Part shown: positions 1 to 27,147 of the stretch, in pieces
Layout of the letters: every line of letters starts with the position of its first letter
Numbering within the stretch: position 1 is the stretch's first letter
Virus record (IMG/VR): IMGVR_UViG_3300005613_000005
Span: 1 to 27,212 of that record
From: a virus
DNA length: 27,212 bases
Direction: 5' to 3' (one strand)
Program-made: the position numbers and the translations under genes
Notes under the pieces: model-generated
Seen by the model: the letters and a program-made list of their open reading frames with translations, nothing else
What the model was told of the DNA's origin: nothing
Database searches by the model: none

Positions 1-3000
1 CTCTGAAGTACCAATTATTTCATCAGAGCTATCTGATATATTATAGATTTTACATTTATGCCGACTTACGTCCCATGCGGGAGCTTTCGCTAAAATTTTA
101 TACACACCTGCCGCTAAAGTAAATTGATTACTAGATAAAGAGCACCAAGTCTGACTATTTTCTGTAGTGTTTAAAACTCTAGTTTGCCATGACCCACTTG
201 TGAAAGTTCCTCCCACATTATTATTAGGTTTTACATCCTTAAGATACACCGTATCTGTAAAGAATCGATCTAACATTTGCCAATTGCTTCCATCTGATAT
301 AATTTTAAGCCTTGCATACTGACAATCTAAAGCAATAGTAGTGCATCCTGATATTGTCTCCGCGCCTTCCCCATCTACAACAACATTATAGGTTGTACTA
401 TCTGTCTTTATAAATTCTATAACTCTATTTTCATTATCTGCTGCGGTCGGTAAAGCCATTGTTACATCAGCAGTATCAGCAGAATTCGTGCAAAAAATTA
501 AACTATAACCATCTGTATCCGTTATAGTATAATCAGCACTTTTACTAGCCGCATTATTTAAAAATCCGCTTTTTATTTGTGTTATATTAGTAGAATTATC
601 ATCACTTGTATCATTAGTTCCTATTCTTCTTTTAACACTTATGCTTAAAGAGCTACCGCTATAATCAGAGTCAAGTTCAATGTATCCGCCATTGGGATCT
701 TCTGTATAATTAGCATTTGGCGTTAACGTTCCATCTACATATCTTGGAATTTCTTTACCATCTAAATAAACTTCTAAATCCCCAAAAGGATTACCAGAAT
801 TTACTCCACTCACAAAACTGGGAAAATCATCTGTAAAAGTTACTCTAGTGTTAGAAGGAGTTGTAATTGCACAATTTATTTCAGTTCCAGCACCATCAGT
901 TCTACCATAGGCCTGATTATGTATACCTCCGTTATTATAATCACTTTCTTCATAAAAAGCTGAGTCATATTCATAAAGAGTAACATTCCCTTTTCCCGTG
1001 GCTTTATTAGCAAAAAATCTTATGAAAAAATGTGCTCCAGCAGTCCCCTGGATAGTTTGAACTGTTTGCTCATTTGCAAAATTCTGTTCCCGAGTATAAC
1101 CGTATTCGTTTGCCCAATTTGCGGCTAAATCAGGGGCAGTTATTGAAGTATAAGCTACATCTACGTCTCCACTCCAGCCGCTGTCATTATAATTAATTAT
1201 ATATTGAGTTAAAGGCCTTATAATATAACCATCTCCATCTCCTCCGAATCCGGTAGTATCTGCTAATACAAAAGTATCAGAATCAGTTATACTAGAAACC
1301 GTAGTTTCATATAAATCTCCTCCATTTTCTTTTAATACTATATCCGCTGCTTGAGGAGTTAGCCAATCTGGCTCTTCTGTATGATCTACGGTATCTACTG
1401 CTCCATTATCTATTAGAGTAAGTGCAAGGTGTCCTACTAATTCTCCACTGGGTCTACTTTCGGTATCTGAAGAATCGTAATAAAACATTCCATCTTTAGT
1501 TTGAATTTTTTGAGAAACCCCGGCATAAGTAGATGTATTTAAATTAGCACTAAAAGTCGATTCTATATCAACATCTGTTTGACTATTAACTGTAACAATT
1601 TTCCTTACTTCTAAATTTCCTCCAATCATTCCAAAAACAACATCTCCCACCGCGACTGTAAAATTTGGAGTACCTGTCCAGGTAATATTAGCTGCAGCTC
1701 CTGCCATATTTGATAAAGAGCCGGCTCCTTGATCTGTATCATATTCTATAGAGTAAGCTTTATTAGCCGCACTATAAGATGCGGTAGTAGCTGCATCTGA
1801 AGCCGCATCTGTAATTTCTATTAAATCTTGGTTATCAAAGGTATCTTTAAAGCCACATCTGAAAGGAAGCTCGTCTAATTTGAGCCCAAATGCAGTTCCT
1901 TCTCCTCCTCCTGAACCCGAAGCTCCAAGTCTTACACTTTGACCTGGCTCAAGTACTTGTTTATGCAGGGGAATATGTAAATATCCAGCTCCACCCGCAT
2001 CTATTCTCTGAAATAAAGGAATTATATCTTTATTAGCTTGACTCTGAGCAGGCAAAGAAGCAACTATGGTAACACTCACATTTTCATCTGTGGTTCTATC
2101 TATGTCTACATAAGCTATTTGTCCATCTGTTAAAGAAATAGGACTTCCTGCTTGTAGAACAGTATGAGTAGTAGCTGTTCCACTTTTAGTATTAATTATT
2201 TTGAGTTCCAGGTCTGAGCTAAAAGTTAAATCTGCTCCATCCCAAACCACCACATCATCACTTCTAAGGAAGGCTGATCTATCTTCTTGCTCATCTCCAA
2301 TTGCATCTGTATGTGCTTGTATCCTATCAACTAGTGATTCTAATGCTGTACCACGAATATTAGATGAATATTCATATGGCATTGTATTGTTATCTTCAAC
2401 AATGACATCATTATTAATGCGTCGTGCTATTATAAAAGTATCTTCTGTATTTGGTATACTTTCTATCGCAGTAATATTTACTGTTCTATTAGATGGTACA
2501 ATTGAAGAATCCCTATTTAAAGTAATATATGCGCATTGTCCATCAGAAGCAAGAACAATCGGTGATTGCGTAGATTGTTGTATGGTGTTACAAGTGTCTG
2601 CTAAACCTGGAAGTTGAACATATGCATCAGCTGTAAATGATAACTGATTAGGTGCCGCAATGTCCCATGTCCAAGTACCGCCTTTTATCAATGATGCATT
2701 TCGGTCTTCATTGATTATATCAGTAAGGTGTTCTGGCGTAGGAGTAGTACCTATCGGTACGTTTGTTCCATCCCATAACCAGACGTCATTGCCTGCTAAT
2801 CTGGTAGCTATGACAAATACGTTCTCATTTATAGGAAACGTTACGTCAGTGCCGCCTATGTCAGCGACCGTTACAGCTGCTAAGTTTGCCCATGTTTTTG
2901 CGTCGTTGCGGTCAACTTCTATATACGCTATCTGATTAGCAGTTAGTGATAAAGTTCCGTTTAGAGTTAAAACCTGTTTATAAACCGCATCGTCAGAACC

Positions 3001-5202
3001 AGGAAGTACCATGTTCAACACGGGCGTTCCGCCTGACAGAGACGTAAAAGTTATATCTTGGTCAGCACCGTTGGTCGTGTTGGTTATGCGATCCGTATCA
3101 TCAAGAAGTTTTTGTATAGTTTTATCTTGGGCTTTATCAGCTATCATAGCTGATAACTTAGATGCCCTTTCAGTTAAGTTATCAGTAACTGAACAATTGT
3201 AGTTGTGCATTCCGTCGAGCGCGTCAAAACTACCCGTTATCCTATATTCAGGATATGTTTCTGTGTCAGCTAACATGCCGACATAGTTCATCAAGCTGTT
3301 ACTTTCACTCTCACCAATATCTATATCCTGACCACGAGTAAGCTTAACAATGCCTGATTCAGAACGAACGTTTATTCGTACTAATGTCGCTGTGCCAGAT
3401 GATGCGGCACTGTAGTTACTTGCTACCGGAAACGTAAAAGTAGTTGCCCCGGTAACGTTTATCTGATGTGTTCCATCGTAGTTATTTATATTAGCGTCTA
3501 TCAGTATAGACTGATTATTTTCAAAATTATGGTTTGCTGACTCATATTCAAGACCTTGTGCATTTACTCTAGCTTTGGTAGTACAAGTAGCGTAATATCC
3601 AGGACATGCTGCTTCGTCTGTTGTTGCTGCCGTGTTTATGTAGAACACGTCCGCGTCAATTACTTCAACCTCGTACGTGTCATCATAATTAACACTTCCC
3701 GATATTGTTATTCGATCTCCGTCTGCAAGTCCGTGACCTACGTGTTCGCATCGGGCAGTAGTGCCGTCACCTTCAGTTATGTCTATAGATAATGTGGTAG
3801 TTGCTATAGAATCTATTGCCATTATGGTATCTGATCTCATGGCCAACCACATCAAATCACCTTTTAGATCTTCAAGGGTGCCGTTTTCTGAGCGTCCTGT
3901 AAATTGAACGTCACTGGTTTCATATATGCCTTGCGTGTACACGCCGTACGCTGATTCTGTGGTACCAGGATACGCGCTACTTATGGTAATAGACTGTGCT
4001 AGTGCTGGCGTAGCACCAGGTGAACCACCATTAAGTGATCCATTAAACCACTCTATCCTGCGATAGTAATGTTTAGGGTCGGATTTTTTCTTAACCCAAT
4101 CACCTTTTTGTAGATTAGCAAAATCGCCTACGTTACCGTTGACGTAAGTCTTACCGTTGTCCCATTCTATGGTCGCTACTGGCGTTATTATGTCAGTGTC
4201 CTTGTTGAACTCGATATACATAACATCATCGTCGTCTAACGTTTTGTTACCGGCTCTTATCACGATGTCCCGGTCGTCGTATATTGACTGTATCAGTATA
4301 TCTTCGGTCCACGTTAGCTTGCCGGCCGTTGATGAATCGTGCTGCCATTGTCCTTTAGATTTTATAGTGGTTGCCTGAGAAACTTCAAATAAGTCATATA
4401 TACCTAGACCAGCATCCTCGTACCAATACGTAGTGCCACCAAGTTCTAATAACTTGGTCATGACCACGTCCATCCACTCTTTGAGACTTTCTATATTTTT
4501 ATCGCCGCCTTCAAACGGATTAGGATCAAGCGCCGATGACATGGTTGTTGGAGGTTCAGATCTAGCATAGGATGAACTCGGTTCATTTCTAAAACTGTAG
4601 GTTGAAAACGGATCTGGACTCAGCCCACCAGTTCCTAAACGATACATTAAGTTGCGGCAATCTTCTATAGAATCTATAGTGGTAGCACCTACTACAACCT
4701 TAGCAATTGGAATAGTATTGTTAGGAAAAGATGATATAGATACGTTTATCTCAACTTCTAGTACAGATTCAGTATTTATGTCCTGTGTAAACTCACCGCC
4801 AGCTCCGCCGTCGATATCGGGATCCCAAAAAGCACGAGTATCTCTAGATACTTCAAACGTGTCAAATGTTAAATATACGTAGTTAGTGGCATTTTTACGT
4901 AGTTCCGGTACTAATGGCTGCGCATATTCATGGCCTTCTTCTAATCCGTGGTAGAAAGAACCAGTATCAGACCCTGGAAACCATACCACTGAATCATGTA
5001 TATTCACCGATATACTCTGACTGTTGATGGCATCACTTGGATTATCAACTTCAAATCCTTTTAAGATGTAGGGTTGATCATCGCCTATTAAACCCTTGAT
5101 AAAATATTTGAAATCTCCAGCAGTATATGAGTCAAAACTTAAAAAATCTGGTAAGTCAATACGCTCAGCAGACGCTATTAATAATCTTCCAAGAACGGCC
5201 AA
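1..5202 (-). CDS. Giant tail fibre / virion structural protein (C-terminus beyond window)
   Basis: One reading frame stays open for 1734 codons; I read every codon from the start to the window edge and met no stop. The first in-frame ATG is only at 4645-4647, so the start I choose is TTG at 5200-5202, five bases after AAGGAGG. The N-terminal ~250 residues (ending near the acidic EFTQDINTESVLEVEI segment) look like a virion-attachment domain but I cannot name the family. Then come two HGLxxGDxI-type modules (residues ~485-605), three copies of a 130-141 aa module (702-1087), beta-rich fibre-like stretches, an LPTAADNENR segment near 1580, and from ~1660 a domain with GTFTSGSWQTR, NQFTLAAGVYKI and HKCKIYN. 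I associate that last pattern with phage fibre tips. Its position after the gpI-like gene fits a fibre. A receptor-binding role is inferred; the C-terminus lies outside the window. Confidence 0.85.
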   Translation of the reverse strand, partial: MAVLGRLLIASAERIDLPDFLSFDSYTAGDFKYFIKGLIGDDQPYILKGFEVDNPSDAINSQSISVNIHDSVVWFPGSDTGSFYHGLEEGHEYAQPLVPELRKNATNYVYLTFDTFEVSRDTRAFWDPDIDGGAGGEFTQDINTESVLEVEINVSISSFPNNTIPIAKVVVGATTIDSIEDCRNLMYRLGTGGLSPDPFSTYSFRNEPSSSYARSEPPTTMSSALDPNPFEGGDKNIESLKEWMDVVMTKLLELGGTTYWYEDAGLGIYDLFEVSQATTIKSKGQWQHDSSTAGKLTWTEDILIQSIYDDRDIVIRAGNKTLDDDDVMYIEFNKDTDIITPVATIEWDNGKTYVNGNVGDFANLQKGDWVKKKSDPKHYYRRIEWFNGSLNGGSPGATPALAQSITISSAYPGTTESAYGVYTQGIYETSDVQFTGRSENGTLEDLKGDLMWLAMRSDTIMAIDSIATTTLSIDITEGDGTTARCEHVGHGLADGDRITISGSVNYDDTYEVEVIDADVFYINTAATTDEAACPGYYATCTTKARVNAQGLEYESANHNFENNQSILIDANINNYDGTHQINVTGATTFTFPVASNYSAASSGTATLVRINVRSESGIVKLTRGQDIDIGESESNSLMNYVGMLADTETYPEYRITGSFDALDGMHNYNCSVTDNLTERASKLSAMIADKAQDKTIQKLLDDTDRITNTTNGADQDITFTSLSGGTPVLNMVLPGSDDAVYKQVLTLNGTLSLTANQIAYIEVDRNDAKTWANLAAVTVADIGGTDVTFPINENVFVIATRLAGNDVWLWDGTNVPIGTTPTPEHLTDIINEDRNASLIKGGTWTWDIAAPNQLSFTADAYVQLPGLADTCNTIQQSTQSPIVLASDGQCAYITLNRDSSIVPSNRTVNITAIESIPNTEDTFIIARRINNDVIVEDNNTMPYEYSSNIRGTALESLVDRIQAHTDAIGDEQEDRSAFLRSDDVVVWDGADLTFSSDLELKIINTKSGTATTHTVLQAGSPISLTDGQIAYVDIDRTTDENVSVTIVASLPAQSQANKDIIPLFQRIDAGGAGYLHIPLHKQVLEPGQSVRLGASGSGGGEGTAFGLKLDELPFRCGFKDTFDNQDLIEITDAASDAATTASYSAANKAYSIEYDTDQGAGSLSNMAGAAANITWTGTPNFTVAVGDVVFGMIGGNLEVRKIVTVNSQTDVDIESTFSANLNTSTYAGVSQKIQTKDGMFYYDSSDTESRPSGELVGHLALTLIDNGAVDTVDHTEEPDWLTPQAADIVLKENGGDLYETTVSSITDSDTFVLADTTGFGGDGDGYIIRPLTQYIINYNDSGWSGDVDVAYTSITAPDLAANWANEYGYTREQNFANEQTVQTIQGTAGAHFFIRFFANKATGKGNVTLYEYDSAFYEESDYNNGGIHNQAYGRTDGAGTEINCAITTPSNTRVTFTDDFPSFVSGVNSGNPFGDLEVYLDGKEIPRYVDGTLTPNANYTEDPNGGYIELDSDYSGSSLSISVKRRIGTNDTSDDNSTNITQIKSGFLNNAASKSADYTITDTDGYSLIFCTNSADTADVTMALPTAADNENRVIEFIKTDSTTYNVVVDGEGAETISGCTTIALDCQYARLKIISDGSNWQMLDRFFTDTVYLKDVKPNNNVGGTFTSGSWQTRVLNTTENSQTWCSLSSNQFTLAAGVYKILAKAPAWDVSRHKCKIYNISDSSDEIIGTSE
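1940..2286 (-). repeat. Fibre module C (residues ~973-1087)
   Basis: Third module. It starts EDRSAF, then VVVWD and LTFSSDLELKI, then GQIAYVDIDR, VTIVAS and IIPLFQRIDAG. The EDR landmark lies exactly 141 residues after that of module B. Confidence 0.78.
2287..2709 (-). repeat. Fibre module B (residues ~832-972)
   Basis: Second module. It starts EDRNAS, then WTWD and LSFTADAYVQLPG, then GQCAYITLNR, NITAI and FIIARRINNDV. The landmark EDR lies 130 residues after the equivalent TDR of module A. Confidence 0.78.
2710..3099 (-). repeat. Fibre module A (residues ~702-831)
   Basis: First of three related modules. It starts near DDTDR, carries a beta strand DITFTSL, then LTANQIAYIEVDR, VTVADI and YVFVIATRL. 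The QIAYxxxxR core defines the family of repeats. Confidence 0.75.
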
Positions 5203-8644: not shown

Positions 8645-11600
8645 TTACGCTATACTAATATCACTAGTTTCAATGAACGCTTTCTCGATATCATCGATAG
8701 ATATCCTTTCGGTACTAGGATCAGGAATATTAAATGTGGCAGCAGCAACACCGCTGACGTCCATTATGGCCGCTATTATCTCAGATAAGATAACATCATT
8801 TCCAACACCTAAACCATTTACGTAGTTGATGATAATAGTTTTTATCTCGTTAGATATCTCTCCTAAGTTAACACCTTCATCAGTGGTTATATCAATGGAC
8901 ATCTCAACTCTTCTAATAAGAGGAGGTAATATCTCGATGACACCACCTACAGCACGACGTCCAGGATAAGTTTCTGAATCAGGCTCATAACCGTCTATGG
9001 TACGCTGAACTGTTCTCAACAATCCTGTGTAATACAAATATCCATCTACACCAGAAACGACCTCAGTCGAGTATCCTAACTTACCAACTGACTGCATCTC
9101 AGATCCGTTAGATTCAGAGAACTTATAAGAGTGATCTGACGGCGTCACGTACACTATCCTTCTAGTATCGTCGAAACTATCTAATATTATATGCTCGACA
9201 CGTCTGTAAGATGAATAAGCATTATCGGCATGTTCTGTGATTATAAAACCAGTAGGATCTACGGACATCAACTTGTTTGTTTCTACAGTACCACTTGCGT
9301 TCAACACACGAACATACGGTTTATAGTCAACACTTGTTCCAAGACCAACTATATCAAATGTTCCAGTATTTGAAACGTTAAACCAACTATTGTTAACTAC
9401 ACTTGAAACATACAGCGAATCATCGGTACGAACACTGTCGCTCTCTAATATCCTAAGATCACCGATTGATTTTAAAACTACGCCCGCGTTCACACCGGTA
9501 ATTTGATTGAATTTAACACCGGTTGAAGAACCTGTAGTGCCACCATATGGACTGCTTAAAGTAACGGATGTTGCTGTAAGTGGATTTCCTGTATTAAAGC
9601 TAGAAACTTGAGCCCATAAAGTCCCACTATCCTCTGCTTTTTTAACAGAGTCACCAACTATCAAGTTTTCAAACGATCCAGCAGCTCCCGTTATCACGAG
9701 CGCGTTCTGAGTCCAAGATACAGCTGTTCCTAAATTATTAAAAGGTATGTTATTTAAGTTAACTTCTTCAGCCGCATTAGTGTTTTCATATATCAAACTG
9801 ATATTATCAACACCGCGCACCCTAAAACTACCGTTGTTATTCGAGTTAAAAGTTGTTCCACTGATTATCAAGAGATCGTCTATCGCCACACCACAATCCT
9901 TAAAACGAGGTGGAGCACCACCGGCCCACGATAGTCTAACTAAATTTTTAAAGCCAAGTATCTCAACTTTATAACGCGTTCTATCATGATCTATAGTAGA
10001 CGAAAATTGACTATCAGCATCTATAGCCGCCTGCACAACGCCGGCAACCGTAGCCGCATCATCGCCCGTTGCAACGCCCGTAATTTCTACAGCACGGTCA
10101 CAGGCAGAAGCACCAGCCGGAATCCCTGTTCCTGAATCATCAACGTCAAACCAAAAACCGACAGAACCATTTTCATCGTATAATACAAAATATTTAGCAT
10201 CAAGTGAACCAGCTACGTCTGCTACAGTGATAATCTCAGTTACTCTGCGAATATTAGTTCCACCTTCTTGAAAAACACTTACTGTAAAACCAGAATCTCC
10301 AGCACCTGGAGTACCAGCACCACCAACATACTCATTAATGGCCACTACTAAATCTTGATTTTTACGAATTATAGTACCGGTGTCGTAGGTTGCATCAGTA
10401 ATACCAGAAGTTGCATAAGTAAAAGTATTATATCCAGTTACGCCAACAACAGTTCCTATTCCAGAACCTGGATCTGAAGGTAAAGCGTTATTGTTTAATA
10501 ACTCAAAATTATCTCCAACCTTAAGATGATGCGGATCAGTTGTTGTAGCCGTAGATACGTTGGCGACATCTGTCACCGAAACGTTGTTTCTCGCCATATG
10601 AGAAACGTTCCACTCTATTATAGGAGTTGGGCAGATTTCTACTGAACCACTAATTCCTATAGTAGTAGCACTCATTATTTCACCGTACGGGTTAACAATT
10701 TCAAAATATCTGTTTGTATCATCAACGGCGACTATTGGAAATCCAGCAACTTTATCATCACCAGTTCCACTAGACATATTTCCTGCACTCCAACCTGAAA
10801 ACGTACCTGATACAAACAACAAGTCACCAGCAGCAACATCATTTAACGTTGCTCCTGACGTCTGCGTTATTCCCCACACATTGTTGAAGTCAGAATCTAA
10901 TGACAGAGTATTAACTAATTTCTGAATTATATCGTTTACACTATCGCCAGTTGCTATATCAACTTCGATTTGATAGTCAGTTAAGCTATAAGGAACATTG
11001 GCAGCAGGAGGAGTTCCATCAGCATCGATGTCAAACCATATGCCAAACAGTTCATTAGAACCAGGACCATCGATCAAGAAATAATCAGCTTGCGTTGGAA
11101 AATCGCTCAATGTTAAGTTAAACTGCTGTGGATTTGATCCATCGCCAGCATGAACGCTAATAACTTCTAGATTAGTAGCAGTTCCACCAGAATCTGCTCT
11201 GTAATTAGTGGCTGCGTACACATCAGGAGCACCATTACTGTCTGCTGTGATCTGAGCATATGATCCTGAATCAGCATGAGTCCACCTAAAGACAGTTCCT
11301 GTTGGTCTGGCATGTGCTGCTGACACGTCTGTTATAGTTACCTTAACGTACGGAGTAAAATATATGTTTTTCGGATTATACATATAATCGTAGTAGTCAC
11401 CACTTGTATTTACAACGTCGATAGAATCTGTACTTGATAACCGGTTATATCGTGCTGCACCTGCTGAGTTAACAAACTTAACGATATCACCTGGGTTTAT
11501 AGTATCTGGATATGAACGTATTCTTGTTGCCATGAAATTTGAGCCACTTTCACTTATTATTTCAGAATCAGCTATCAACGAGAATGAAGCGCTATTGGCA

Positions 11601-14600
11601 CGTCCGCCAACTACTTCAATTTTTCCACCTGATCCTAGTTCTTCAGAAACTATCTGTACTTTTTTATTGTCTCCAGCGATATTTATGTCAGATACTAATG
11701 GTAACTGTGATAATGCTTTATGTACTAGATGATGTCTGACGTTCTGTATAGTAGTCGGTATCAATTTAAAATATTCGCCGGTTTCTGTATCATCATAGTT
11801 CGGTGTAGTGTCCATCTGATATACGGTTGGTTCAACACCCGGTAACAGTAAAGGGACCTTAAATGTGAAGTTAGGATTAGAGTTTGAAAAGTTAAGTACC
11901 CGATTTTCACTATCGTATAAATTAACATGATCGTGATTGCCGCTTGTAGGATCTGTATCGTGTCCGTACGCAACAGCAGCTGTAGTCTCATCCCTTGTTG
12001 CTAATTCTATAGTTTTAGAATCGTCGCCTATGGCAACAGCAATCATCAGATCTTCAGCGTTTATCGTATCTACTATATCACTCACTGCAGTTCCTTCTAA
12101 AGGAAATATAGTTATCGCTGTTGGAACTGAGATAATCTCATCAGAAGCATTAGATCCGTTAACAGACGTAGCGGTAGTAAAACCAGAAGTACCATTAGAA
12201 GGCGCTGGTCTACCACCGACATTAGCATCAGTAACCGTTATGACGTTGGCTCCTGGTGCTGGTGCTGAAAATTCAGAATCAGCGTTGATAGCAGCGCGAA
12301 CTGCTAGTGCAACGTTGTTGGCACTCATACCAGAGGTGATAGTAGTAACTGCTATTGATCTGTCAGCACCGTGAAGTGGTTCTGCGGTGCCGGTATTATC
12401 AACATCCATCCAGACGGCTACAGAACCGTTCTGATCTTGTAGTACGAAATATTTACCATCAAGAGATGTAGGATCAACACCTGCGACCTGTTCTGTGATA
12501 CTAAAAGCTGTAGTTCCTGCATTACCCTGTGTACTTAATTCATACGCAGTGTGCGTGACATCAAGTTGATCTGTAGTTGCACCAACTGCTGCCGCTGAAA
12601 ATTCAGGATCAGAGCCTATAACAGTTATTAAACGATCTCTAACATTTTCTTCAGTGTCTGCCGCTACGACGGTCGTTATCTCAATGGACCTTGAACATCC
12701 GTGAGCAGGTTCAGCTGTTCCTGAGTCGTCAACGTCTATCCAAAACGCTACTGATCCGTTGGAATCATATAGTTTAAAATATTCACCGTCTAAAGTACCG
12801 CCGTTTTCACCGTTGAGGTCGATACGATCTACACGCTGTGTTCCTGCTCCATCAGCGATAGTAGTTACTGTTGTCACTTCAGCAGCACCAACTCCGGTAG
12901 CTGCGCCATCAGGATTATAGACTTTTATGAATTGGTTAGCCGGAACAGCCCAGTTACCAACCTCTGTTATTATCAATTGCCCGCGGTTGCTGCTAGAAAT
13001 TCCAGAGTTACTGAGAGCGCTGAATACGTCGCCGGCGACTACGCCGTTAGCTGACAGATCACCCGAATTTGTAAAAGTATATTTAAAGATATTACTTCCT
13101 AAATCACTTACAGCTATAGTTGTCGTACCGGTGATCCCAGTTGTTCTACCAGATCCGCTTCCAAAATAATACTTGTAGGTACTTGCTACTGGACTATTTT
13201 CATGCACCGTTGTCGCATCTGTGTCTGGAACAGTTGGATATTCAATTGAAAAGATTATTTTTTCTCCGATTGGTCCAAACTGCGCGGCACGCAGCATCAT
13301 CTTACCGTCACTGCTGGCAACGCCGTTGGCACAGTACCAGTTTCTAGCTCTGAACCACATCTTATAGTCAGCGAACTCCGTGTTCGTTAAGGTTTTGCTC
13401 CACACCGTTGGTGTTCCAAAATCAACACCGATCTCATTGTCAGAGTCGTCGGCGGATAAGGCATAGTTGCTAGGAATAAATGTTCCGCCTTGTGAACCGG
13501 CATTAACACGGCCGGTTCTTGCGATGTTAACGTCAACGGTTTTATTGACTGAATCATCGTCTAATATGGTAACGATACTGTCTTCTGCTGAAAACCGTAA
13601 GTTTTCAACGATTTGAAATTCGTCTCGGGCAATATGCGCCATCGTTGTTGCGGGTTTATTATAGCGAGTTCCTACTCTATCACCAGATAATATCTGCTTT
13701 ATTGCCTTCCATTGTTTTTTATTAGCACCTTTAGTAAAATAGATAGCATCATCATAGTTAACAAATGCATCAGCTAATACATCAGTAGATTCTAGTATCT
13801 CTGCATAGGCATCTATACCTTCTGTACCTATAGTAGCATCAGCTGCTAAATTACCTCGTCTGTCACTGTATACGTATCTATCTAACCACGTATATGTGCT
13901 AGTAGGTGTTGTACGTTTAAACCACGTTATCATCTCACCTTCAGTTTTTCTATTAGCAACGTGCGGAGGATTTCCATCTTCAGACGCGTTTCCTGTAGCA
14001 AACAATAAAGTTGCATTTCCAAGTGATACTGGAATAGCGATACTTCCGCCATCTTCTGTTGTAGAAGTTATCTTAACTTTATTAGTCTTATATATAGACG
14101 CTATCACGTTTTGAGTGTTATCGTTTATAGAATCGATAAGATCTTCGATAGCTTCTGATGCGGGAGTCGTAGCCATCGATCCTAGCCAAATTTGAGGATA
14201 AGCGTCAGCGTAGAACGCTTGCATATCTTCGGGGGCTAAAACTGAGATAGGACCTTCTGCTGTTATATCATCGTTCAATACTTCTATGTAAGTATCTGTT
14301 CCCGCACTTGTGTGGTTACCTTTTGCAACAACTTTAAACAGGCCTGTATTGCTGTTACTTAACCAAGAGCTTGTGCGCGATGCGATGTAGATGTAATCGT
14401 GTGTCGTAGCATGCACGTTTCTGAAAGTTGATATTGAACTTGACATTATCCTCATCACGCCGTCACCTTGATCTGATATCGTGATGGTTGATCCAACCGC
14501 GGCTAGACCACTGGAACGAACTATAACTTCATCAGCGTCTGCTACTATGACCAACGTTGCTGGTGTTCCGTTCGCATCTGCAGACACGTTAAAATTACCT

Positions 14601-16519
14601 GTTGTAGTAGCTTCTGATATTATAGCTCCTTTAGCATCGTCAGTTCCCGCAGATATGGTATCATCTTCTGCTATATCGGTGAGTATCTTTATGTTTCCGT
14701 TCTGTCTATTAAGTTCAAAATTAGAACTTTGTCCTTCTGCTTCAATATCTAAGTCAGAAAACCATATGTTAAGTAAGTCACCACCTAAAATTTCAAGTGA
14801 TGAATTATCACCTATTTGATTAGACGATATACGCATTGCTCCAGATGACAGAGCAGAAGCTGTGATACCGGCAAATTTACTGTTAAACGCTGTTACCCAA
14901 TCACTCAACGTCAACGCGTTCCATGATGCAGCACCAAAATCTGTTAAAGTAAAAGTCTGATCTTGAGCAGGTGTTCCATCAACAGAGATCACCACGTTAC
15001 TGTCACTATTGACTCCCCAAGTTGAAAATATCGTGGTTATCAAAGTAGCGGCCTTTTCTTGTTCTTTAAGCAACGTATTGTTTTGATACAGTTTAATATA
15101 TGAAAATTCATTTGTCGGAAATTTTAATATTGAATTGGCATATAATGATGCGTTTTCTGTACTACTTCTAGGAGGAACTTGTATTATCTCAGCGTCGTAC
15201 GCAACAGGATAAATAAGTAAACGTGTTGAATTCGTCGTCATGCGAATCTTAAACAGCGTTGATTGATCGTTAACCATGGTAACTATTTCAGGTAAGGTAG
15301 CGGCTGCTATGTTAGCAAAATCACTAGAACTAAAAGAGATCGTTTCTTCATCGTCATCTACACGGATCCTCAATGTCATACCATCTGTTAACTCATAAGG
15401 ACCATCGGCCGCGTTTACGACCTGAGGTCTTGGCAGTGGGTAGTTGGCTAATTGAAGATATTCTTCAGTACCTGAAGCATTGGCTAATAAGGTATCTACT
15501 GATTGCCCTACGTATGATGGCTCAAACCCACCGCCATCGTCAATGTATATAATAGAAGGCTCGCCAACCGTTACTGGTTCGGCGATAACAGCCGAGGCTA
15601 CTTGTTTATTGTCGTCGATGTCAGACACACCGACGATAGCAGCTAATATAGCAGACCGTGTTCCTCTAGCTAACGTACTTGAATATGATTTTATCCTTTC
15701 GCGCAGTTCAAAATCCGATTCCATATCGCGACCATTTGTCAACGGTACAGAATTGGTTATTGTAGCAGTAGGAAAAGGTAAAGTTGTAAAGTTAGTAATA
15801 GTATTAATACCAGCATTACCTTGTGTTCCAGCCTTTAATGCTATAATTTCTACGTTGTCAACGTGATCATCACCAGCTGGTATGACTGCATCACGAAGTG
15901 TATTATATTTGACGGCTGGCGATTGGTTATTTGCGGGTATGTTAATTTCTGTACCTGCTGATATCAATCTATCTGTTGTTCCTTGAGCATCGACAACACG
16001 TTCAGAAATTAAATGATCTTTTTCAAGCGCTGATGAAAGTTGAATACTGTAATAAGTAACATGGTTAGTTATTGAGGTATACGATATTGGTCCTTCAAAA
16101 TTAGCAGTTTCTTGTCCTATATATAATGTTCCGGTAGGTTCCCAATCAGAGGCGTTATTAACATATAATACGGTTGATCCAGCAATAGGAGCTGGTTTAA
16201 TAGGAAACAATGTTGTACTTCGTTTTGTTATACTAGAATCACTGATAGTAACAAAACCTGATGCTCTTATAGCATTTATTCTTTCAAGACCAAAGTCAGC
16301 AGCTCTAGTATCTAGATCAGCATTTTTAAGCATATCAATATTTAATAACTCTAAAATACTTAAAATAGCTACGTTATTATCAAAGTCGTTTTGTGCACAG
16401 GCCTCTAATAATGTTAATAACGCTGATCCAGTATTAATATCGTTAAGCACTGATTCGGCAATCACTTTCCGAATCATGTTTCCTAACATCTGGTTATATG
16501 ATTTAATTTCAATGCTCAT
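8645..16519 (-). CDS. Giant baseplate J-like protein with internal repeats (2624 aa)
   Basis: The first ~310 residues look like a baseplate J/gp47-family protein: a helical N-terminus, DTRAADFGLERINAIRASG, then GTEINIPA, AGTQGNAG and NGRDMESDFELRERI, followed by a helix where J proteins have RG-type motifs. The last ~100 residues (RRVEMSIDITT, VGNDVILSEIIAAIMDVSGV) look like a J C-terminus. Ordinary J-like proteins are roughly 300-500 aa, so about 2200 residues are extra. The extra part contains four modules with YFxLxDxNGSVxFW-like cores, several GDxLxIxG...NxGxFxV modules, and FxxxDFxNIAAAT / GGRAN modules also seen in the 746-aa protein. The start ATG follows AGGA in a 50-base gap. J-like proteins form the baseplate wedge ring; the insert probably projects outward, which is inference. 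Confidence 0.88.
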   Translation of the reverse strand: MSIEIKSYNQMLGNMIRKVIAESVLNDINTGSALLTLLEACAQNDFDNNVAILSILELLNIDMLKNADLDTRAADFGLERINAIRASGFVTISDSSITKRSTTLFPIKPAPIAGSTVLYVNNASDWEPTGTLYIGQETANFEGPISYTSITNHVTYYSIQLSSALEKDHLISERVVDAQGTTDRLISAGTEINIPANNQSPAVKYNTLRDAVIPAGDDHVDNVEIIALKAGTQGNAGINTITNFTTLPFPTATITNSVPLTNGRDMESDFELRERIKSYSSTLARGTRSAILAAIVGVSDIDDNKQVASAVIAEPVTVGEPSIIYIDDGGGFEPSYVGQSVDTLLANASGTEEYLQLANYPLPRPQVVNAADGPYELTDGMTLRIRVDDDEETISFSSSDFANIAAATLPEIVTMVNDQSTLFKIRMTTNSTRLLIYPVAYDAEIIQVPPRSSTENASLYANSILKFPTNEFSYIKLYQNNTLLKEQEKAATLITTIFSTWGVNSDSNVVISVDGTPAQDQTFTLTDFGAASWNALTLSDWVTAFNSKFAGITASALSSGAMRISSNQIGDNSSLEILGGDLLNIWFSDLDIEAEGQSSNFELNRQNGNIKILTDIAEDDTISAGTDDAKGAIISEATTTGNFNVSADANGTPATLVIVADADEVIVRSSGLAAVGSTITISDQGDGVMRIMSSSISTFRNVHATTHDYIYIASRTSSWLSNSNTGLFKVVAKGNHTSAGTDTYIEVLNDDITAEGPISVLAPEDMQAFYADAYPQIWLGSMATTPASEAIEDLIDSINDNTQNVIASIYKTNKVKITSTTEDGGSIAIPVSLGNATLLFATGNASEDGNPPHVANRKTEGEMITWFKRTTPTSTYTWLDRYVYSDRRGNLAADATIGTEGIDAYAEILESTDVLADAFVNYDDAIYFTKGANKKQWKAIKQILSGDRVGTRYNKPATTMAHIARDEFQIVENLRFSAEDSIVTILDDDSVNKTVDVNIARTGRVNAGSQGGTFIPSNYALSADDSDNEIGVDFGTPTVWSKTLTNTEFADYKMWFRARNWYCANGVASSDGKMMLRAAQFGPIGEKIIFSIEYPTVPDTDATTVHENSPVASTYKYYFGSGSGRTTGITGTTTIAVSDLGSNIFKYTFTNSGDLSANGVVAGDVFSALSNSGISSSNRGQLIITEVGNWAVPANQFIKVYNPDGAATGVGAAEVTTVTTIADGAGTQRVDRIDLNGENGGTLDGEYFKLYDSNGSVAFWIDVDDSGTAEPAHGCSRSIEITTVVAADTEENVRDRLITVIGSDPEFSAAAVGATTDQLDVTHTAYELSTQGNAGTTAFSITEQVAGVDPTSLDGKYFVLQDQNGSVAVWMDVDNTGTAEPLHGADRSIAVTTITSGMSANNVALAVRAAINADSEFSAPAPGANVITVTDANVGGRPAPSNGTSGFTTATSVNGSNASDEIISVPTAITIFPLEGTAVSDIVDTINAEDLMIAVAIGDDSKTIELATRDETTAAVAYGHDTDPTSGNHDHVNLYDSENRVLNFSNSNPNFTFKVPLLLPGVEPTVYQMDTTPNYDDTETGEYFKLIPTTIQNVRHHLVHKALSQLPLVSDINIAGDNKKVQIVSEELGSGGKIEVVGGRANSASFSLIADSEIISESGSNFMATRIRSYPDTINPGDIVKFVNSAGAARYNRLSSTDSIDVVNTSGDYYDYMYNPKNIYFTPYVKVTITDVSAAHARPTGTVFRWTHADSGSYAQITADSNGAPDVYAATNYRADSGGTATNLEVISVHAGDGSNPQQFNLTLSDFPTQADYFLIDGPGSNELFGIWFDIDADGTPPAANVPYSLTDYQIEVDIATGDSVNDIIQKLVNTLSLDSDFNNVWGITQTSGATLNDVAAGDLLFVSGTFSGWSAGNMSSGTGDDKVAGFPIVAVDDTNRYFEIVNPYGEIMSATTIGISGSVEICPTPIIEWNVSHMARNNVSVTDVANVSTATTTDPHHLKVGDNFELLNNNALPSDPGSGIGTVVGVTGYNTFTYATSGITDATYDTGTIIRKNQDLVVAINEYVGGAGTPGAGDSGFTVSVFQEGGTNIRRVTEIITVADVAGSLDAKYFVLYDENGSVGFWFDVDDSGTGIPAGASACDRAVEITGVATGDDAATVAGVVQAAIDADSQFSSTIDHDRTRYKVEILGFKNLVRLSWAGGAPPRFKDCGVAIDDLLIISGTTFNSNNNGSFRVRGVDNISLIYENTNAAEEVNLNNIPFNNLGTAVSWTQNALVITGAAGSFENLIVGDSVKKAEDSGTLWAQVSSFNTGNPLTATSVTLSSPYGGTTGSSTGVKFNQITGVNAGVVLKSIGDLRILESDSVRTDDSLYVSSVVNNSWFNVSNTGTFDIVGLGTSVDYKPYVRVLNASGTVETNKLMSVDPTGFIITEHADNAYSSYRRVEHIILDSFDDTRRIVYVTPSDHSYKFSESNGSEMQSVGKLGYSTEVVSGVDGYLYYTGLLRTVQRTIDGYEPDSETYPGRRAVGGVIEILPPLIRRVEMSIDITTDEGVNLGEISNEIKTIIINYVNGLGVGNDVILSEIIAAIMDVSGVAAATFNIPDPSTERISIDDIEKAFIETSDISIA
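9958..10212 (-). repeat. NGSV module 4 within the J-like protein
   Basis: Residues ~2102-2187. The core is YFVLYDENGSVGFWFDVD, then SGTGIP, VEITGVATGDD, a helix, ADSQFS and YKVEI. It is closest by eye to modules 1 and 2. Confidence 0.8.
10850..11100 (-). repeat. NGSV module 3 (diverged) within the J-like protein
   Basis: Residues ~1806-1890. The core is degenerate (YFLIDGPGSNELFGIWFDID, then DGTPPA), but the IEVDIATGD strand, the helix and LDSDFN follow in the same order and spacing as in modules 1, 2 and 4. Confidence 0.65.
12229..12473 (-). repeat. NGSV module 2 within the J-like protein
   Basis: Residues ~1349-1430. The core is YFVLQDQNGSVAVWMDVD, then TGTAEP, an IAVTT strand, a helix, ADSEFS and VITVTD. 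It lies about 110 residues after module 1, so the two are close to tandem. Confidence 0.8.
12553..12800 (-). repeat. NGSV module 1 within the J-like protein
   Basis: Residues ~1240-1322. It has the core YFKLYDSNGSVAFWIDVD, then SGTAEP, an IEIT strand, a helix, and SDPEFS followed by LDVTH. The same order recurs in three other modules of this protein. Confidence 0.8.
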
Positions 16520-22738: not shown

Positions 22739-25609
22739 TTAATGGTGTGTACCATAAAAATCTATCGCTTCATATTCTGATTGTTTTAGTGATTTAATTG
22801 GCGTTTTATCTTTATCAACATCAACGCCGACAGCTTCTGCAAATTTATTTACCGCGCGTTCAAATACATTAGCAGCTTCACCAATTTTAGTAGCGGGTGT
22901 TTCAAATCGCTCTGCTGCTTCTGGCGCTGCTTCTGCTAATTCTCTTGGCGCTGTCGTTCTTTCTATAGCATCTAAAAAATCATTTAATCCAGTAATTTGT
23001 TTAGCTACATCTCCTGACGTATCAATTTCTTCAAATACACTAGCGCCTTCTTTGAGTATTTTAAACCCCATTTTACCTTTACGTATACGTTCTCTATTAG
23101 CTTGAGTTGCTCTAGTACCAGGTTGTACCCATTCTTCTTTTGCCGCATCTTCTCTACCGATATTAGCAAAGCCACCTAAACCAATTCCCCAAGCTGCATT
23201 AAAACCCGCAACTTCATCTTTAACATCATCGCTCATCTCATTAAATGTTATTTGCCCTAAAGCGTACTTATTATACTCAGCTCTAGCTTTAGGAGACATC
23301 ATCCAATATCCAGGAGTAGTTAAGGCGTATGTTCTTTGAGTAAAACGTCTAAATTTTGCTAAATTCTCAGCATTAACACCGGTTACGTTACCGTTAATAT
23401 CACGTTCTGCAAGTATACCACTTAAACCTGTTTGGTATAAAGTTTGTTGTACTTTTTTAGGATCACCGGCGACCATTGCTGCTTCTATTTGTTCTAACTT
23501 TTCTCTACTACCTGCTAATGCGCCTAAACTAACTCCTAATGCCCTATTTCCAAAAACTTGCCGCAACATTCCCATGCGAATTACGTTATTGAGTGAATAG
23601 CGTCTAGGATCCATGGCTTGATTAGCAGCAGTTATTAAATTTTGTGCTGCGCCGGCTCTTAAATTTTCTGCGACGCCAAGTTGCTGTAAACTTTGCATGG
23701 TTGTTGCCATCGTCTCTCGTGCACCAGCAGCTATATCTACACCGCGAGCAGCTTGTCCTGCACTAATACTAATTATTCCACTAACCATCTGTCCTATATT
23801 TTTTGAAGTATCTAATCCTTGAGCTGTAGCATTTGCTATTATAGTTTCTAAATTTTGAGTTGCATTAATACCAATATTACTTAATTGACTGGTCATACTG
23901 ACAAATTGCTGCGCAGTCATTGTTCCACCAAGTTGTGCTCTTGCTGCCGCTGCCAACGTATTATTAAAACCAAACTGTGCACCCATTCCCTGAACACCAG
24001 CCGCTGTTAAACCTGTTATATCTTGGTTTGTCAAGCCCATATTCATGAGATCTTGTAAACTAGCTCCTGCCCAAGTTTCTCTAATAGGCCCCATAGGAGC
24101 TTGTAATTGCCATAAGCTTTGTAATGCTGTTTCTCTTTGACGTCCCATTCCAATAGTTGCTCGTCCAGCTTGTATACTATAATCTGTAAATTCTTGTACG
24201 TTATAATTACCAACTTTATTAAATGAGTCAAAAAGTTGTAATGCTTTAACTTGACCTTGAATCCCAGCTAATGCTCCAGGAACACCTGTTGTAAATAATG
24301 CTATTCTTTTAGCAATGTTAGCAGCATCACGCATGCCAGCAGATACTGTACCAGTAGGATCAGTTGCCCACGTACCTGCTACATTACCGCTTGCTATTGC
24401 GATGTCACCTGCGATATCAAATCCTAGGGCTGTTTGTTCAGCCCAACGCATCCCTTGTCCAACTCTAGCAGCAGCTGCCCATCCACCAGCTAACCGTCTA
24501 GCAGCTGCAATATCGTCTTCTCTAGCAGCTTTATAAAAATCAAAAGATCGCCTGTTCGCTAACTCAGCATAACCTAGTTGGGCTTCCATACGCTGCATAG
24601 GAAGTTGGACACCAAAGAAACGGGTTAGGTCACCAGTAGTTCTTAACGCAGCACCGGCCCATCCACCGCTAAGTATATTTGCCAACCAACCTCCACGAGC
24701 TTGTGGACGTGAAGGATCAATACCTGCACCTCGTGCAACATTGCTAGCACTTACATATGAATCTTGAGCTTGTTGATATGCTCTTGACAGATCATCAACG
24801 TTATCTGCACCCTCTTCTAATGCTTTCCTAAACTTTTCCCACGCTTTATCCATGCCAGTTTGTGCAGACATCAAGTTTGTGGCAGCTTGTCGTTTACCAA
24901 TTTCACCTGTATATCCCATTCTAAACTCAGCTTCACCACGAAGTTGCTGTTGTACTTTCATACCAGTCGCGTATATAGATGCAGGATCAGCACGTTCTAC
25001 TCGCATGCGCTCCATGGCAAACGATGTCCTGGCTATTTCTTCTTCTGTGCCGGTTACTTTTCTAGCGGCTCTCTCTAACAGTTCTGGCGATGTATTAGGA
25101 TCTTGTGATAATATACCTAAATTTTCGCGATATTGTTCTAAGCGTTGTGTTGCTGCAGCATATCTTCTACGCATAGAACCGAAACCAGGTTGAGCCATCA
25201 CGTTGTAACCACCAGCTCGCATCACACGTTCTTCTTCCATGCCTTGACGTATACGTGTTGCGGACATGCGAGTACTCGCAAAACGGGTTATACGTTGTTG
25301 ATATTCAACATTGTATCGTTGCTGTCTTGCTATCTGCTCTTGTCGGACCTGTTCTCTAAACCGTTCTGCTTCAGATCCTATATCAGCAACTTCACCATAA
25401 TATTCTGCTATGGTTTGATCAGGATCAGGGCCGCGTCCTTTAACGTACTCCAGTTCTTCCTGCGCTCGTTGAGCGGCTGTCATGTAACGTGATTCGGCAG
25501 CACCAGGTGTAACTCTAGCACGTTGTAAACGTTCCATTATTTGGCCAAACTCTGAAGTCGTGTTTACAGGTCTAGTACTTCTATTTACAGGCCCTTTTCC
25601 TTTAGGCAT
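22739..25609 (-). CDS. Tail tape measure protein (956 aa)
   Basis: Long, alanine/glutamine-rich and mostly helical. The first ~300 residues are charged, coiled-coil-like (QERLQRARV- and EEEIARTSFAMERM-type segments). A middle part has more hydrophobic glycine-rich stretches such as NILSGGWAGAALRTTG and IALFTTGVPGALAGIQG, which could be membrane-active, and the segment AARAQLGGTMTAQQFVSM. The C-terminus is again charged. It directly follows the frameshifted chaperone and precedes the hub, the standard place of the tape measure. The ATG follows TGAGGGTAAATT, where the chaperone stop TGA abuts the ribosome binding site. At the usual ~1.5 angstrom per residue, 956 aa suggests a tail tube near 140 nm; this is an estimate from the family rule. 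Confidence 0.85.
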   Translation of the reverse strand: MPKGKGPVNRSTRPVNTTSEFGQIMERLQRARVTPGAAESRYMTAAQRAQEELEYVKGRGPDPDQTIAEYYGEVADIGSEAERFREQVRQEQIARQQRYNVEYQQRITRFASTRMSATRIRQGMEEERVMRAGGYNVMAQPGFGSMRRRYAAATQRLEQYRENLGILSQDPNTSPELLERAARKVTGTEEEIARTSFAMERMRVERADPASIYATGMKVQQQLRGEAEFRMGYTGEIGKRQAATNLMSAQTGMDKAWEKFRKALEEGADNVDDLSRAYQQAQDSYVSASNVARGAGIDPSRPQARGGWLANILSGGWAGAALRTTGDLTRFFGVQLPMQRMEAQLGYAELANRRSFDFYKAAREDDIAAARRLAGGWAAAARVGQGMRWAEQTALGFDIAGDIAIASGNVAGTWATDPTGTVSAGMRDAANIAKRIALFTTGVPGALAGIQGQVKALQLFDSFNKVGNYNVQEFTDYSIQAGRATIGMGRQRETALQSLWQLQAPMGPIRETWAGASLQDLMNMGLTNQDITGLTAAGVQGMGAQFGFNNTLAAAARAQLGGTMTAQQFVSMTSQLSNIGINATQNLETIIANATAQGLDTSKNIGQMVSGIISISAGQAARGVDIAAGARETMATTMQSLQQLGVAENLRAGAAQNLITAANQAMDPRRYSLNNVIRMGMLRQVFGNRALGVSLGALAGSREKLEQIEAAMVAGDPKKVQQTLYQTGLSGILAERDINGNVTGVNAENLAKFRRFTQRTYALTTPGYWMMSPKARAEYNKYALGQITFNEMSDDVKDEVAGFNAAWGIGLGGFANIGREDAAKEEWVQPGTRATQANRERIRKGKMGFKILKEGASVFEEIDTSGDVAKQITGLNDFLDAIERTTAPRELAEAAPEAAERFETPATKIGEAANVFERAVNKFAEAVGVDVDKDKTPIKSLKQSEYEAIDFYGTHH

Positions 25610-25618
25610 AATTTACCC

Positions 25619-26448
25619 TCAAAATTCTATCTTTAAATCGTCACCAAAATCTTCACCGAGCTCTTTCTTGTTTTTCTTAAGTTGCTCTTCCATCCACTCT
25701 TTATCTTTTTTCTTCTGCTCTGCTTCCTGCTTCTTCTTTAACTCTTTTAACTCTCGTAACTCTTCTTTTTCAGCCCAATCTAAGTTATTTTGAAGCCGTT
25801 CATCTTCTATTTTATCAGAATCTTGGTCAGCTTGATCTTTAGCAACACGTTTTCGTTCTGCCTTATCATGGTATTCATAGAGCAGTTCTTCAAGGGTATA
25901 TTGTTCAAGTAACGGGTCCTTGAGAGGTTTATTATAGTATTCTGACCACCAAGACTGTAATCTTAGCAGTAATGTTTTTTCTGAATTTACTTCTTTGTCA
26001 GCAAGCGCCCTGACTATGTTATAAATGGCATCGTAGGTGGAGAGCTGCCTTATTTGCTCCCCGTACTCTTTTCCCCCAATTTGGGGTCTTTCGCTTTAGA
26101 ACGCTTTTTAACTTCATCTTTCCACAACATTTCTTGTGCCATTACTTGATCATAGAGTTTTACACATACATTCTCATCCATGATATCAAAACCGCCGTTG
26201 CTATCTTTCCACCAACTCGGTCCTTCAATAATCCGCACTCGACAGTTAGCTAACACTTCGCCTAATCCCATCAGGTTCATTGTAGGATTAGTCTGATCTG
26301 CTTGTAAACGTGTTTTTTCTATTTCAATGGCACGTTTTTGAAACATGTTTGGTATACATATGACGGTAAATTCTCCCTCATATTTCTTACCAGTATCTTC
26401 ACCAACAGCTTCAAAAGAAAAACTTTTCTCGTTCTTCGGGAGATCCAT
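25619..26448 (-). CDS. Tail assembly chaperone, -1 frameshifted long form (gpGT-like, ~276 aa)
   Basis: This feature joins the short chaperone frame to the downstream -1 frame. The -1 frame is open from just before the G5A4G run to TGA at 25619-25621. Between the overlap and its last quarter it contains no ATG, GTG or TTG, so it can hardly be expressed by its own start. Read across the shift it adds ~145 residues: YGEQIRQLSTYDAIYNIVRA, then KPLKDPLLEQYTLEELLYEY, then a lysine/glutamate-rich coiled-coil-like tail ending GDDLKIEF. The length works: 830 bases plus one re-read base gives 277 codons including stop. In lambda and many other phages the gpG and gpGT forms coat the tape measure during tube assembly; the tape measure gene starts nine bases downstream here. 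The exact slip codon is not certain. Confidence 0.82.
26039..26062 (-). promoter_or_regulatory. Stem-loop likely stimulating the -1 frameshift
   Basis: GGGGAGC pairs with GCTCTCC as seven base pairs including one G-U, with a 10-base loop that contains the zero-frame TAA. The stem starts five bases after the slippery run, within the usual spacing of stimulatory hairpins. Confidence 0.65.
26050..26448 (-). CDS. Tail assembly chaperone, short form (gpG-like, 132 aa)
   Basis: The unshifted product. It starts with FSFEAVGEDTGKKYEGEF-type beta strands and FTVICIPNMFQKRAIEIEK, then helical segments with LANCRVRIIEGPSWW and a basic end (KKRSKAKDPKLG). I choose ATG 26446-26448, seven bases after AAGGAG; the ATG at 26452-26454 is only one base from that site. 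The stop TAA at 26050-26052 falls in the loop of a predicted hairpin just after the slippery run. The family is assigned from size, overlap, frameshift layout and place before the tape measure, not from a diagnostic motif. Confidence 0.8.
   Translation of the reverse strand: MDLPKNEKSFSFEAVGEDTGKKYEGEFTVICIPNMFQKRAIEIEKTRLQADQTNPTMNLMGLGEVLANCRVRIIEGPSWWKDSNGGFDIMDENVCVKLYDQVMAQEMLWKDEVKKRSKAKDPKLGEKSTGSK
26068..26077 (-). other. Putative -1 ribosomal frameshift run G5A4G
   Basis: On the minus strand the sequence is GGGGGAAAAG, read in the starting frame as (TT)G GGG GAA AAG. It allows a -1 slip of a glycine tRNA on GGG or a lysine tRNA on AAG. It is not a perfect X-XXY-YYZ heptamer, so I cannot say which codon slips. 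It lies 16 bases before the zero-frame stop. Confidence 0.7.
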
Positions 26449-26502: not shown

Positions 26503-27147
26503 TTAAAATACGTTACTGAACCATTTCTTAGCTCTATTTACTGTTCTTTGTATTGGCGAACGAACCGCCGCGAGACGATTGGTATCACCAGTTGCGCCGC
26601 GTGGATATTCTGGTATCTTTTCATCACGATAAGCGATCGCTTTAAAACGGAGTGTAAGATTAGCTAATTGTCCAGCTTTTATATTCTCTTGACGATCAAC
26701 AATCATTGCTCGCCCTGTATAAAACAACAATGAATCAGTCTGTGCATCACGCACTTCGATACTAATATGTTTATGAAATAAAAAAGAAAGTACATCGGGA
26801 GATATAAGTTGATTGGTTGGACCATTTCCAGGTATCACAAGACCGTTTAACGTTCCGGATACCATTATCTTGTTAGGTACAATTTCTATCGGCATGTAGT
26901 TGTCGATGCCCCATAGTTCTTTAGAGTCCGTCTGCATCCTCCACGAAACACCAGTAGCAAAAGCAGCGATACGACCGTTTATTTTTATAATAGTTCTAGC
27001 ACCTGTCATGTATTTTGCAGCAGGTTTAGCAGATAGTATACCTTGAAAACCACTTACTAAATTTTTACCAATGTTAGAAGGATCAATAGCGCTGGCAGCC
27101 GCACCCAACACTGAATTGTCACTAAAACCTTTTAAATAATCAGCCAT
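26503..27147 (-). CDS. Tail tube-like virion protein (214 aa)
   Basis: The core at residues ~50-175 is beta-rich: GARTIIKINGRIAAFATGVS, then ELWGIDNYMPIEIVPNKIMVSGTL and SIEVRDAQTDSLLFYTGRAMI, then LTLRFKAIAYRDE. This resembles tube or tube-initiator proteins of contractile phages. The glycine/alanine-rich N-terminus (~1-45) and basic C-terminus are extra. It sits just before the chaperone and tape measure, where tube genes normally lie. The start ATG follows TAAGGTATAAAT, in which the upstream stop TAA is part of the ribosome binding site. A tube-related baseplate component or terminator is also possible, since the sheath and any second tube gene would be outside the window. Confidence 0.6.
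   Translation of the reverse strand: MADYLKGFSDNSVLGAAASAIDPSNIGKNLVSGFQGILSAKPAAKYMTGARTIIKINGRIAAFATGVSWRMQTDSKELWGIDNYMPIEIVPNKIMVSGTLNGLVIPGNGPTNQLISPDVLSFLFHKHISIEVRDAQTDSLLFYTGRAMIVDRQENIKAGQLANLTLRFKAIAYRDEKIPEYPRGATGDTNRLAAVRSPIQRTVNRAKKWFSNVF

Follow-up and report, generated by a model that had tools for sequence, protein, structure and literature searches.

Known chaperone frameshifts and the locus in the window

In phage lambda the tail assembly chaperones gpG and gpGT are encoded in two overlapping open reading frames (ORFs) ahead of the tape measure gene; the second is a -1 frame ORF without a start codon, and a G-rich heptamer, which we take to be GGGAAAG, is located near the zero-frame stop. 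Such frameshifts are conserved in the tail chaperone genes of dsDNA phages. Another slip site, termed "fivetwo", is GGGGGAA, and the authors of PRFect found it at all of about a thousand sites in SEA-PHAGES genomes and explained the slip by a Glu tRNA that re-pairs with GGA through a G:U pair (PMC10885494). The same heptamer was assigned to corynephage phi16 (PMC5506516).

Here we analysed a stretch of viral DNA (the window), which comprises bases 1-27,212 of a virus record of 176,243 bases. Two overlapping ORFs, called G and T in the following, very probably encode a gpG/gpGT-type tail assembly chaperone pair with a predicted -1 frameshift at GGGGGAA before a hairpin. The initial annotation of this DNA had proposed a programmed -1 frameshift of the gpG/gpGT layout, which the ORF layout, the run with its stem, the conservation of T and the fold match of G all support. 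As in lambda, the ORFs overlap in front of the tape measure gene, the second one is start-less and in the -1 frame, and a G-rich heptamer is found near the zero-frame stop; a G-T fusion is expected in the window as in lambda and the other dsDNA phages. Unlike lambda, the window phage is contractile-tailed, has GGGGGAA instead of GGGAAAG and shows a prominent hairpin with the stop codon in its loop. Heptamer, register and kind of gene pair are the same as in the actinobacteriophage "fivetwo" frameshifts and in phi16 (PMC10885494; PMC5506516). For phi16 a downstream structure was proposed as well, but together with an internal Shine-Dalgarno sequence (SD) and as a pseudoknot, whereas the window has a simple hairpin (PMC5506516). 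The predicted frameshift in the window is ordinary in kind and its arrangement is standard for phages; the interesting part is the apparent change of decoding mode within the family.

The only annotated phage record found with a related chaperone is that of Myxococcus phage Mx1 (OR576727), which has a long contractile tail (PMC10720576). The window phage belongs to a contractile-tailed group with genomes of about 170 kb that is distantly related to Mx1. The Mx1 proteins WNM70150 and WNM70151 are homologous to G (28% identity) and to T (RALA..W.SE..PL core), respectively, and chaperone, T, presumed tape measure protein and the next gene follow in the same order. Mx1 differs from the window in three respects: its T can start at a GTG that follows AAGGAG and is located at the stop codon, a slip site is absent, and the overlap is only 7 bases long. 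WNM70150-WNM70152 (L002:6001-9461) are annotated as hypothetical in Mx1; they look like the chaperone, its T partner and the presumed tape measure protein.

Tail module and overlapping reading frames

The chaperone pair is encoded on the minus strand inside a tail module with the order tail sheath, three tube-like genes, chaperone pair, 956-aa gene and baseplate-like genes. G and T, which overlap at 26095-26050, are located between the tube-like genes and the presumed tape measure gene; further tube-like genes and the sheath gene are found upstream of the gene for the 214-aa protein, outside the window. Only the sheath was identified by homology; the tube and tape measure genes were assigned from their order and size and from synteny with Mx1, and the presumed tape measure protein itself matched no family convincingly.

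Features of the chaperone locus and the surrounding tail genes (window positions, except where L003 is given)
Feature	Position	Strand	Basis
Tail sheath	L003:4638-6848, beyond window	-	matched to named tail sheath proteins
214-aa structural protein, probably tail-tube related	26503..27147	-	gene order (tube role)
Tail assembly chaperone, zero-frame product (gpG-like), 132 aa without stop	26053..26448	-	ORF layout, homologues, fold match
-1-frame ORF (T domain)	25619..26095, stop TGA 25621-25619	-	33-51% identity to 64 aligned relatives
Slippery heptamer G_GGG_GAA, X_XXY_YYZ register	26071..26077	-	sequence; columns of GGGAAAC in relatives; published motif
8-base spacer AAGAGTAC	26063..26070	-	same 8-base distance in nearer relatives
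Presumed stimulatory hairpin	26039..26062	-	fold calculation; paired changes across relatives
Zero-frame stop TAA, in hairpin loop	26050..26052	-	sequence
Presumed tape measure protein, 956 aa	22739..25609	-	position, size, Mx1 synteny, 24% identity to Mx1 counterpart

From stop to stop the zero frame covers 26460-26053. The best placed start of G appears to be ATG 26448, as the initial annotation had implied; it is preferred over ATG 26454 because AAGGAG is located 7 bases upstream of it (only 1 base from ATG 26454) and because a start with MDLP is near-invariant in relatives. The T ORF consists of 158 codons (26095-25622), and its first ATG, GTG or TTG is codon 134, as expected from the earlier observation that this frame is start-less until its last quarter. 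The distance between its TGA and the presumed tape measure ATG at 25609 is, as had been stated, exactly nine bases (25618-25610). TAA 26098-26096, just upstream of T, terminates the -1 frame; therefore, the slip must occur within 26095-26050. No stop interrupts the -1 frame past the slip, compared to 10 and 20 stops in the other two frames. T residues after the slip number 150 (26071-25622), and the predicted G-T fusion comprises 126 + 150 = 276 residues. This settles the annotation of the window: a chaperone domain is missed by ORF callers as the initial annotation had foreseen, although it is 150 and not about 145 residues long.

Other genes of the region were noted in passing. An opposite-strand ORF of 382 aa (L003:3451-4599, plus strand) between the sheath and tube genes of the same genome contains, by eye only, an apparent HNH-nuclease stretch and a P-loop kinase-like stretch, and may represent a homing endonuclease gene that was acquired by the tail module. 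A 518-aa protein of the structural region (L003:8614-10170, minus strand) contains an apparent Nudix box; the structural region of Mx1 has a much longer gene annotated as NUDIX hydrolase. Very long ORFs are present on the minus strand in the baseplate/tail-fibre region of the window (1-5202, at least 1734 aa; 8645-16519, 2624 aa).

Slip site and proposed mechanism

The run GGGGGAAAAG (26077-26068) is read as TTG GGG GAA AAG AGT ACG GGG AGC AAA TAA in the zero frame through to the stop, and as ATT GGG GGA AAA GAG TAC GGG GAG CAA ATA AGG in the -1 frame. Tandem slips are possible in register at two places, G_GGG_GAA and G_GAA_AAG. A slip on G_GGG_GAA re-pairs perfectly in the P site (GGG to GGG) and with one G-U in the A site (GAA to GGA). 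Bases 4-6 of GGGGGAA are G, G and A, and the heptamer is thus not of the canonical X_XXY_YYZ type, as was correctly remarked before; P-site GGG and A-site GAA give it the "fivetwo" form. The suspicion that the slip mechanism may be unusual does not hold, since this motif is published and relatives carry the textbook heptamers GGGAAAC/A/G/T. The GGGAAAC of relatives aligns in the columns of GGGGGAA, and in L067, L114, L122, L136, L139 and L143 the stem begins 8 bases past GGGAAAC, which decides the place of the slip; the site is therefore a known motif variant. The spacer, previously given as five bases, is also 8 bases long when counted from G_GGG_GAA; in others with longer stems the distance is 4-7 bases. 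Since relatives use GGGAAAN, GGGGGAA is a local variant; L018 has GGGAAAG, presumably identical to the lambda heptamer. In the bodies of these chaperone genes GGGAAAN or GGGGGAN is found in register at only one of 7450 sites.

In the proposed mechanism most ribosomes would follow the zero frame to the TAA at 26052, and their product would be the chaperone G of 132 aa. In a minority, the Gly-tRNA would be on GGG (26076-26074) and the Glu-tRNA on GAA (26073-26071) when the hairpin is met 8 bases ahead; these ribosomes would slip back by one base, so that the tRNAs re-pair with GGG and, through one G-U, with GGA, and would continue in the -1 frame. The product would be the 276-aa G-T fusion with a mostly helical T part. 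The lambda proteins (PMC5009743) suggest by analogy that G serves to bind the tape measure protein, and T to recruit tube subunits. That the slip occurs, how efficient it is and what the products do, we infer. The fusion may not be strictly required, because T expression seems to need no frameshift in many members of the family.

Downstream hairpin

A 7-bp stem at 26039-26062 with the zero-frame stop in its loop had been described from the sequence and is present to the base: the arms 26062-26056 and 26045-26039 (GGGGAGC/GCTCTCC) pair with one G-U and enclose a 10-base loop (26055-26046) containing the TAA. Folding of the sequence after the run had been suggested as a check. The stem itself has a folding energy of −11.3 to −11.7 kcal/mol and beats most shuffled sequences (z −2.3 to −2.5; 2-6 of 200 shuffles as good), but over 60 bases the hairpin is only moderately stronger than shuffles (z only −1.66).

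Across the relatives with a slip site, changes on both sides of the stem that keep the pair were counted in 19 cells of a structure-blind alignment of 27 sequences, compared to a shuffled mean of 10.0 (0 of 500 shuffles). Sliding the structure by up to 3 columns in this alignment always gave a smaller share of paired cells than the true register; on covariation, slides of +2 and +3 score similarly to it. A subset of 18 rows contained 14 two-sided changes versus 6.9, and the true register was best on the main measures. Because the alignment rows are related, these counts support the stem rather than prove it. For these counts the structure was specified beforehand and its pairs were scored in place of a prediction by RNAalifold, which returned no consensus structure for the 27-row alignment, probably because loop lengths differ and the stem of one subclade is offset by one column. 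It was also considered that the GGAGA core is conserved merely through coding in two frames. Coding accounts for part of the conservation (GEL..LS in the -1 frame), yet it leaves the two-sided changes in the outer and inner pairs unexplained.

Alternative explanations

The frameshift could be real and yet use the second tandem slip in the run, on G_GAA_AAG (26074-26068), 5 bases from the stem. The P-site Glu-tRNA would then move from GAA to GGA and the A-site Lys-tRNA from AAG to AAA. This motif is present in register, Lys-tRNA re-pairs easily from AAG to AAA, and a 5-base spacer is seen in some relatives with longer stems. What makes it an unlikely choice is that the imperfect re-pairing would be placed in the P site, whereas GGG to GGG is perfect, that the GGGGG of the window aligns with the GGG of GGGAAAC, that the stem of the nearer relatives is located 8 bases past the heptamer, and that the recurrent natural motif is GGGGGAA (PMC10885494). 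Both slips would yield identical junction residues (..LGEKEYG..).

T might also be a separate protein, made by re-initiation at ATA 26053, which overlaps the stop codon behind the sequence GGGGAG. This SD-like sequence is just upstream and has a duplex energy of −6.9 kcal/mol; moreover, Mx1, L032 and L034 seemingly start T at the stop codon and 37 junctions have an internal ATG. Nevertheless, translation starts very poorly at ATA, the GGGGAG is part of the stem and its distance from ATA is short. In relatives with a slip site the heptamer is conserved and not the ATA codon, and the -1 frame of the window is closed upstream and offers no ATG, GTG or TTG before codon 134, which leaves re-initiation with very little probability. 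Finally, a single gene might have been split by a false indel in the run, through an assembly or sequencing error, as the junction run is G5A4 and runs of this type are error-prone places. Many contigs, with 29 distinct junctions between them, have this -1 arrangement in one and the same position, together with the conserved stop and hairpin. Since independent contigs show the same arrangement, such an error is hardly conceivable, and a -1 slip on G_GGG_GAA is the preferred reading.

Structure models and family matches

The AlphaFold model of G (pLDDT 89.6, pTM 0.80) consists of two strands and helices. A Foldseek search of BFVD matched it to the tail assembly chaperones of Lactobacillus phage 521B and Bacillus phage JL (E values 2.6e-4 and 2.9e-4) and gave closer matches to unnamed phage proteins. 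The T model is helical and includes one helix of nearly 80 residues. Searches of the G and T models against solved structures returned no match. No convincing Pfam family or PHROG model was found for G and T of the window, and G itself had no convincing PHROG chaperone match; its relatives in L032 and L034 match PHROG tail assembly chaperone families.

Relatives with a slip site

Scans of viral contigs with single proteins (G, the 214-aa protein or the sheath) yielded no matches. The family was opened with a two-sequence sheath profile (window and Mx1), which detected 57 loci; a sheath scan of prokaryote genomes found none. A T-domain profile detected 80 viral loci and three loci in MAGs. At 94 of the 98 detected loci the T ORF is in the -1 frame relative to G, and 66 distinct junctions were compared. 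Both frames are conserved as protein; T is 33-51% identical to that of the window in 64 other sequences, with the conserved core WW..YN.PLKDP..YTLEEL, in which WW, Y, PL, DP and Y are invariant.

A slip motif in register is present in 29 of the 66 distinct junctions, including the window (slip class). The motifs are GGGAAAC/A/G/T, GGGGGAA (window), GGGGGAG (L068, L140) and CCCTTTG (L016). In 27 of these 29 junctions a hairpin starts 4-10 bases downstream; the mean fold z is −2.64 and 18 of the 29 are below −2. Comparison with related phages, which had been suggested as a check, showed that run and stem are conserved in this class and that T is strongly conserved. No hairpin was found at the usual distance in L068 and L140 with GGGGGAG. 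In these two (L068:4016-4075, L140:4001-4060) GGGGGAG is located 30 bases ahead of the stop; their tree neighbours have GGGAAAC and a hairpin.

Relatives with other apparent modes of decoding

The slip site is absent from the other 37 junctions (start class; for example, L145, L123, L080, L104 and L101). In all 37 the -1 frame is open from an ATG, which mostly follows a Shine-Dalgarno sequence and in each case arises from a codon ending in A before a conserved Trp codon (xxA TGG). Because the start class was defined by the missing heptamer and not by the ATG, this coincidence is informative. From the ATG through the zero-frame stop the -1 frame is open in 37 of 37 start-class junctions, compared to only three of 29 in the slip class. 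Upstream pairing with the anti-Shine-Dalgarno averages −6.5 kcal/mol in the start class, while the corresponding position of slip-class junctions gives −1.5 (p about 1e-10 in a Mann-Whitney test, a value limited by the relatedness of the sequences). Two junctions, L065 and L114, combine an ATG with SD and a slip site with hairpin. A third arrangement, with the T start at the stop codon of G, is found in Mx1, L032 and L034. The start class and these three would, judging from their sequences, use T starts of their own. A_AAA_AAG was considered as a slip site of the start class, but is present only in L078, L086, L130 and L145 and is therefore no class feature.

Relatives whose -1 frame has its own start and ribosome binding site had been named as an observation that would speak against the frameshift. 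They exist, namely Mx1, L032, L034 and the 37 junctions, and the window is not one of them. They do not refute its frameshift, because its -1 frame, bounded upstream by TAA 26098-26096, contains no such start.

In a first tree the start class formed one clade. A careful tree, with the overlap columns left out, required two changes, and one change was sufficient in 16% of bootstraps; we therefore claim one or two switches rather than one. Slipping and ordinary start codons seem to have replaced each other in this phage family as means to make the same domain. A precedent are the Microbacterium cluster EA phages, in which some subclusters frameshift and others express both ORFs separately (PMC7302621). 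The literature searched contained no case that sets slip sites, starts and trees side by side. Including the +1 branch described below, we lean towards the view that one homologous family makes T in four ways, by a -1 slip (29 junctions), from an internal ATG (37 junctions), from a start at the stop codon and by a +1 slip at UUU_CGN, in which case the G-T fusion would be dispensable. If so, the changes of decoding mode could be placed on the tree. The apparent replacement of frameshifting by a separate start in relatives makes the family a natural experiment, in which one can ask if the presence of both domains is sufficient for tail assembly or if they have to be fused as G-T.

A branch with T in the +1 frame

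In more distant relatives T is encoded in the +1 frame. Many members of this branch have TTT CGN at the corresponding Phe-Arg position, and the +1 frame is open from there (L046:10184, L052:13001, L150, L152-L154, L156, L162, L163, L173, L176 and L181). A plausible T start is often absent in these members. TTT makes up 0-9% of the Phe codons elsewhere in the GC-rich L046, L150, L152-L154, L156 and L162. The junctions of L046, L052 and L152 read TCC TTT CGT, the sequence at which +1 shifting is reported to occur in influenza A PA-X (PMC3498833). The TTT CGN junctions are candidates for a UUU_CGN +1 frameshift. Since a +1 frameshift at TTT-CGC was proposed earlier for the HF1-group haloviruses (PMC7230728), this finding extends an existing idea. 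Like the +1 branch (L046, L052 and others), these haloviruses have a tail chaperone pair joined by a frameshift at the same type of motif; they differ from the window in the direction of the shift (+1, not -1) and in their archaeal hosts, and they are compared with the family here by motif (PMC7230728). In L050, L054, L164, L172 and L177-L180 of the +1 branch an ATG or GTG behind a strong SD is found instead.
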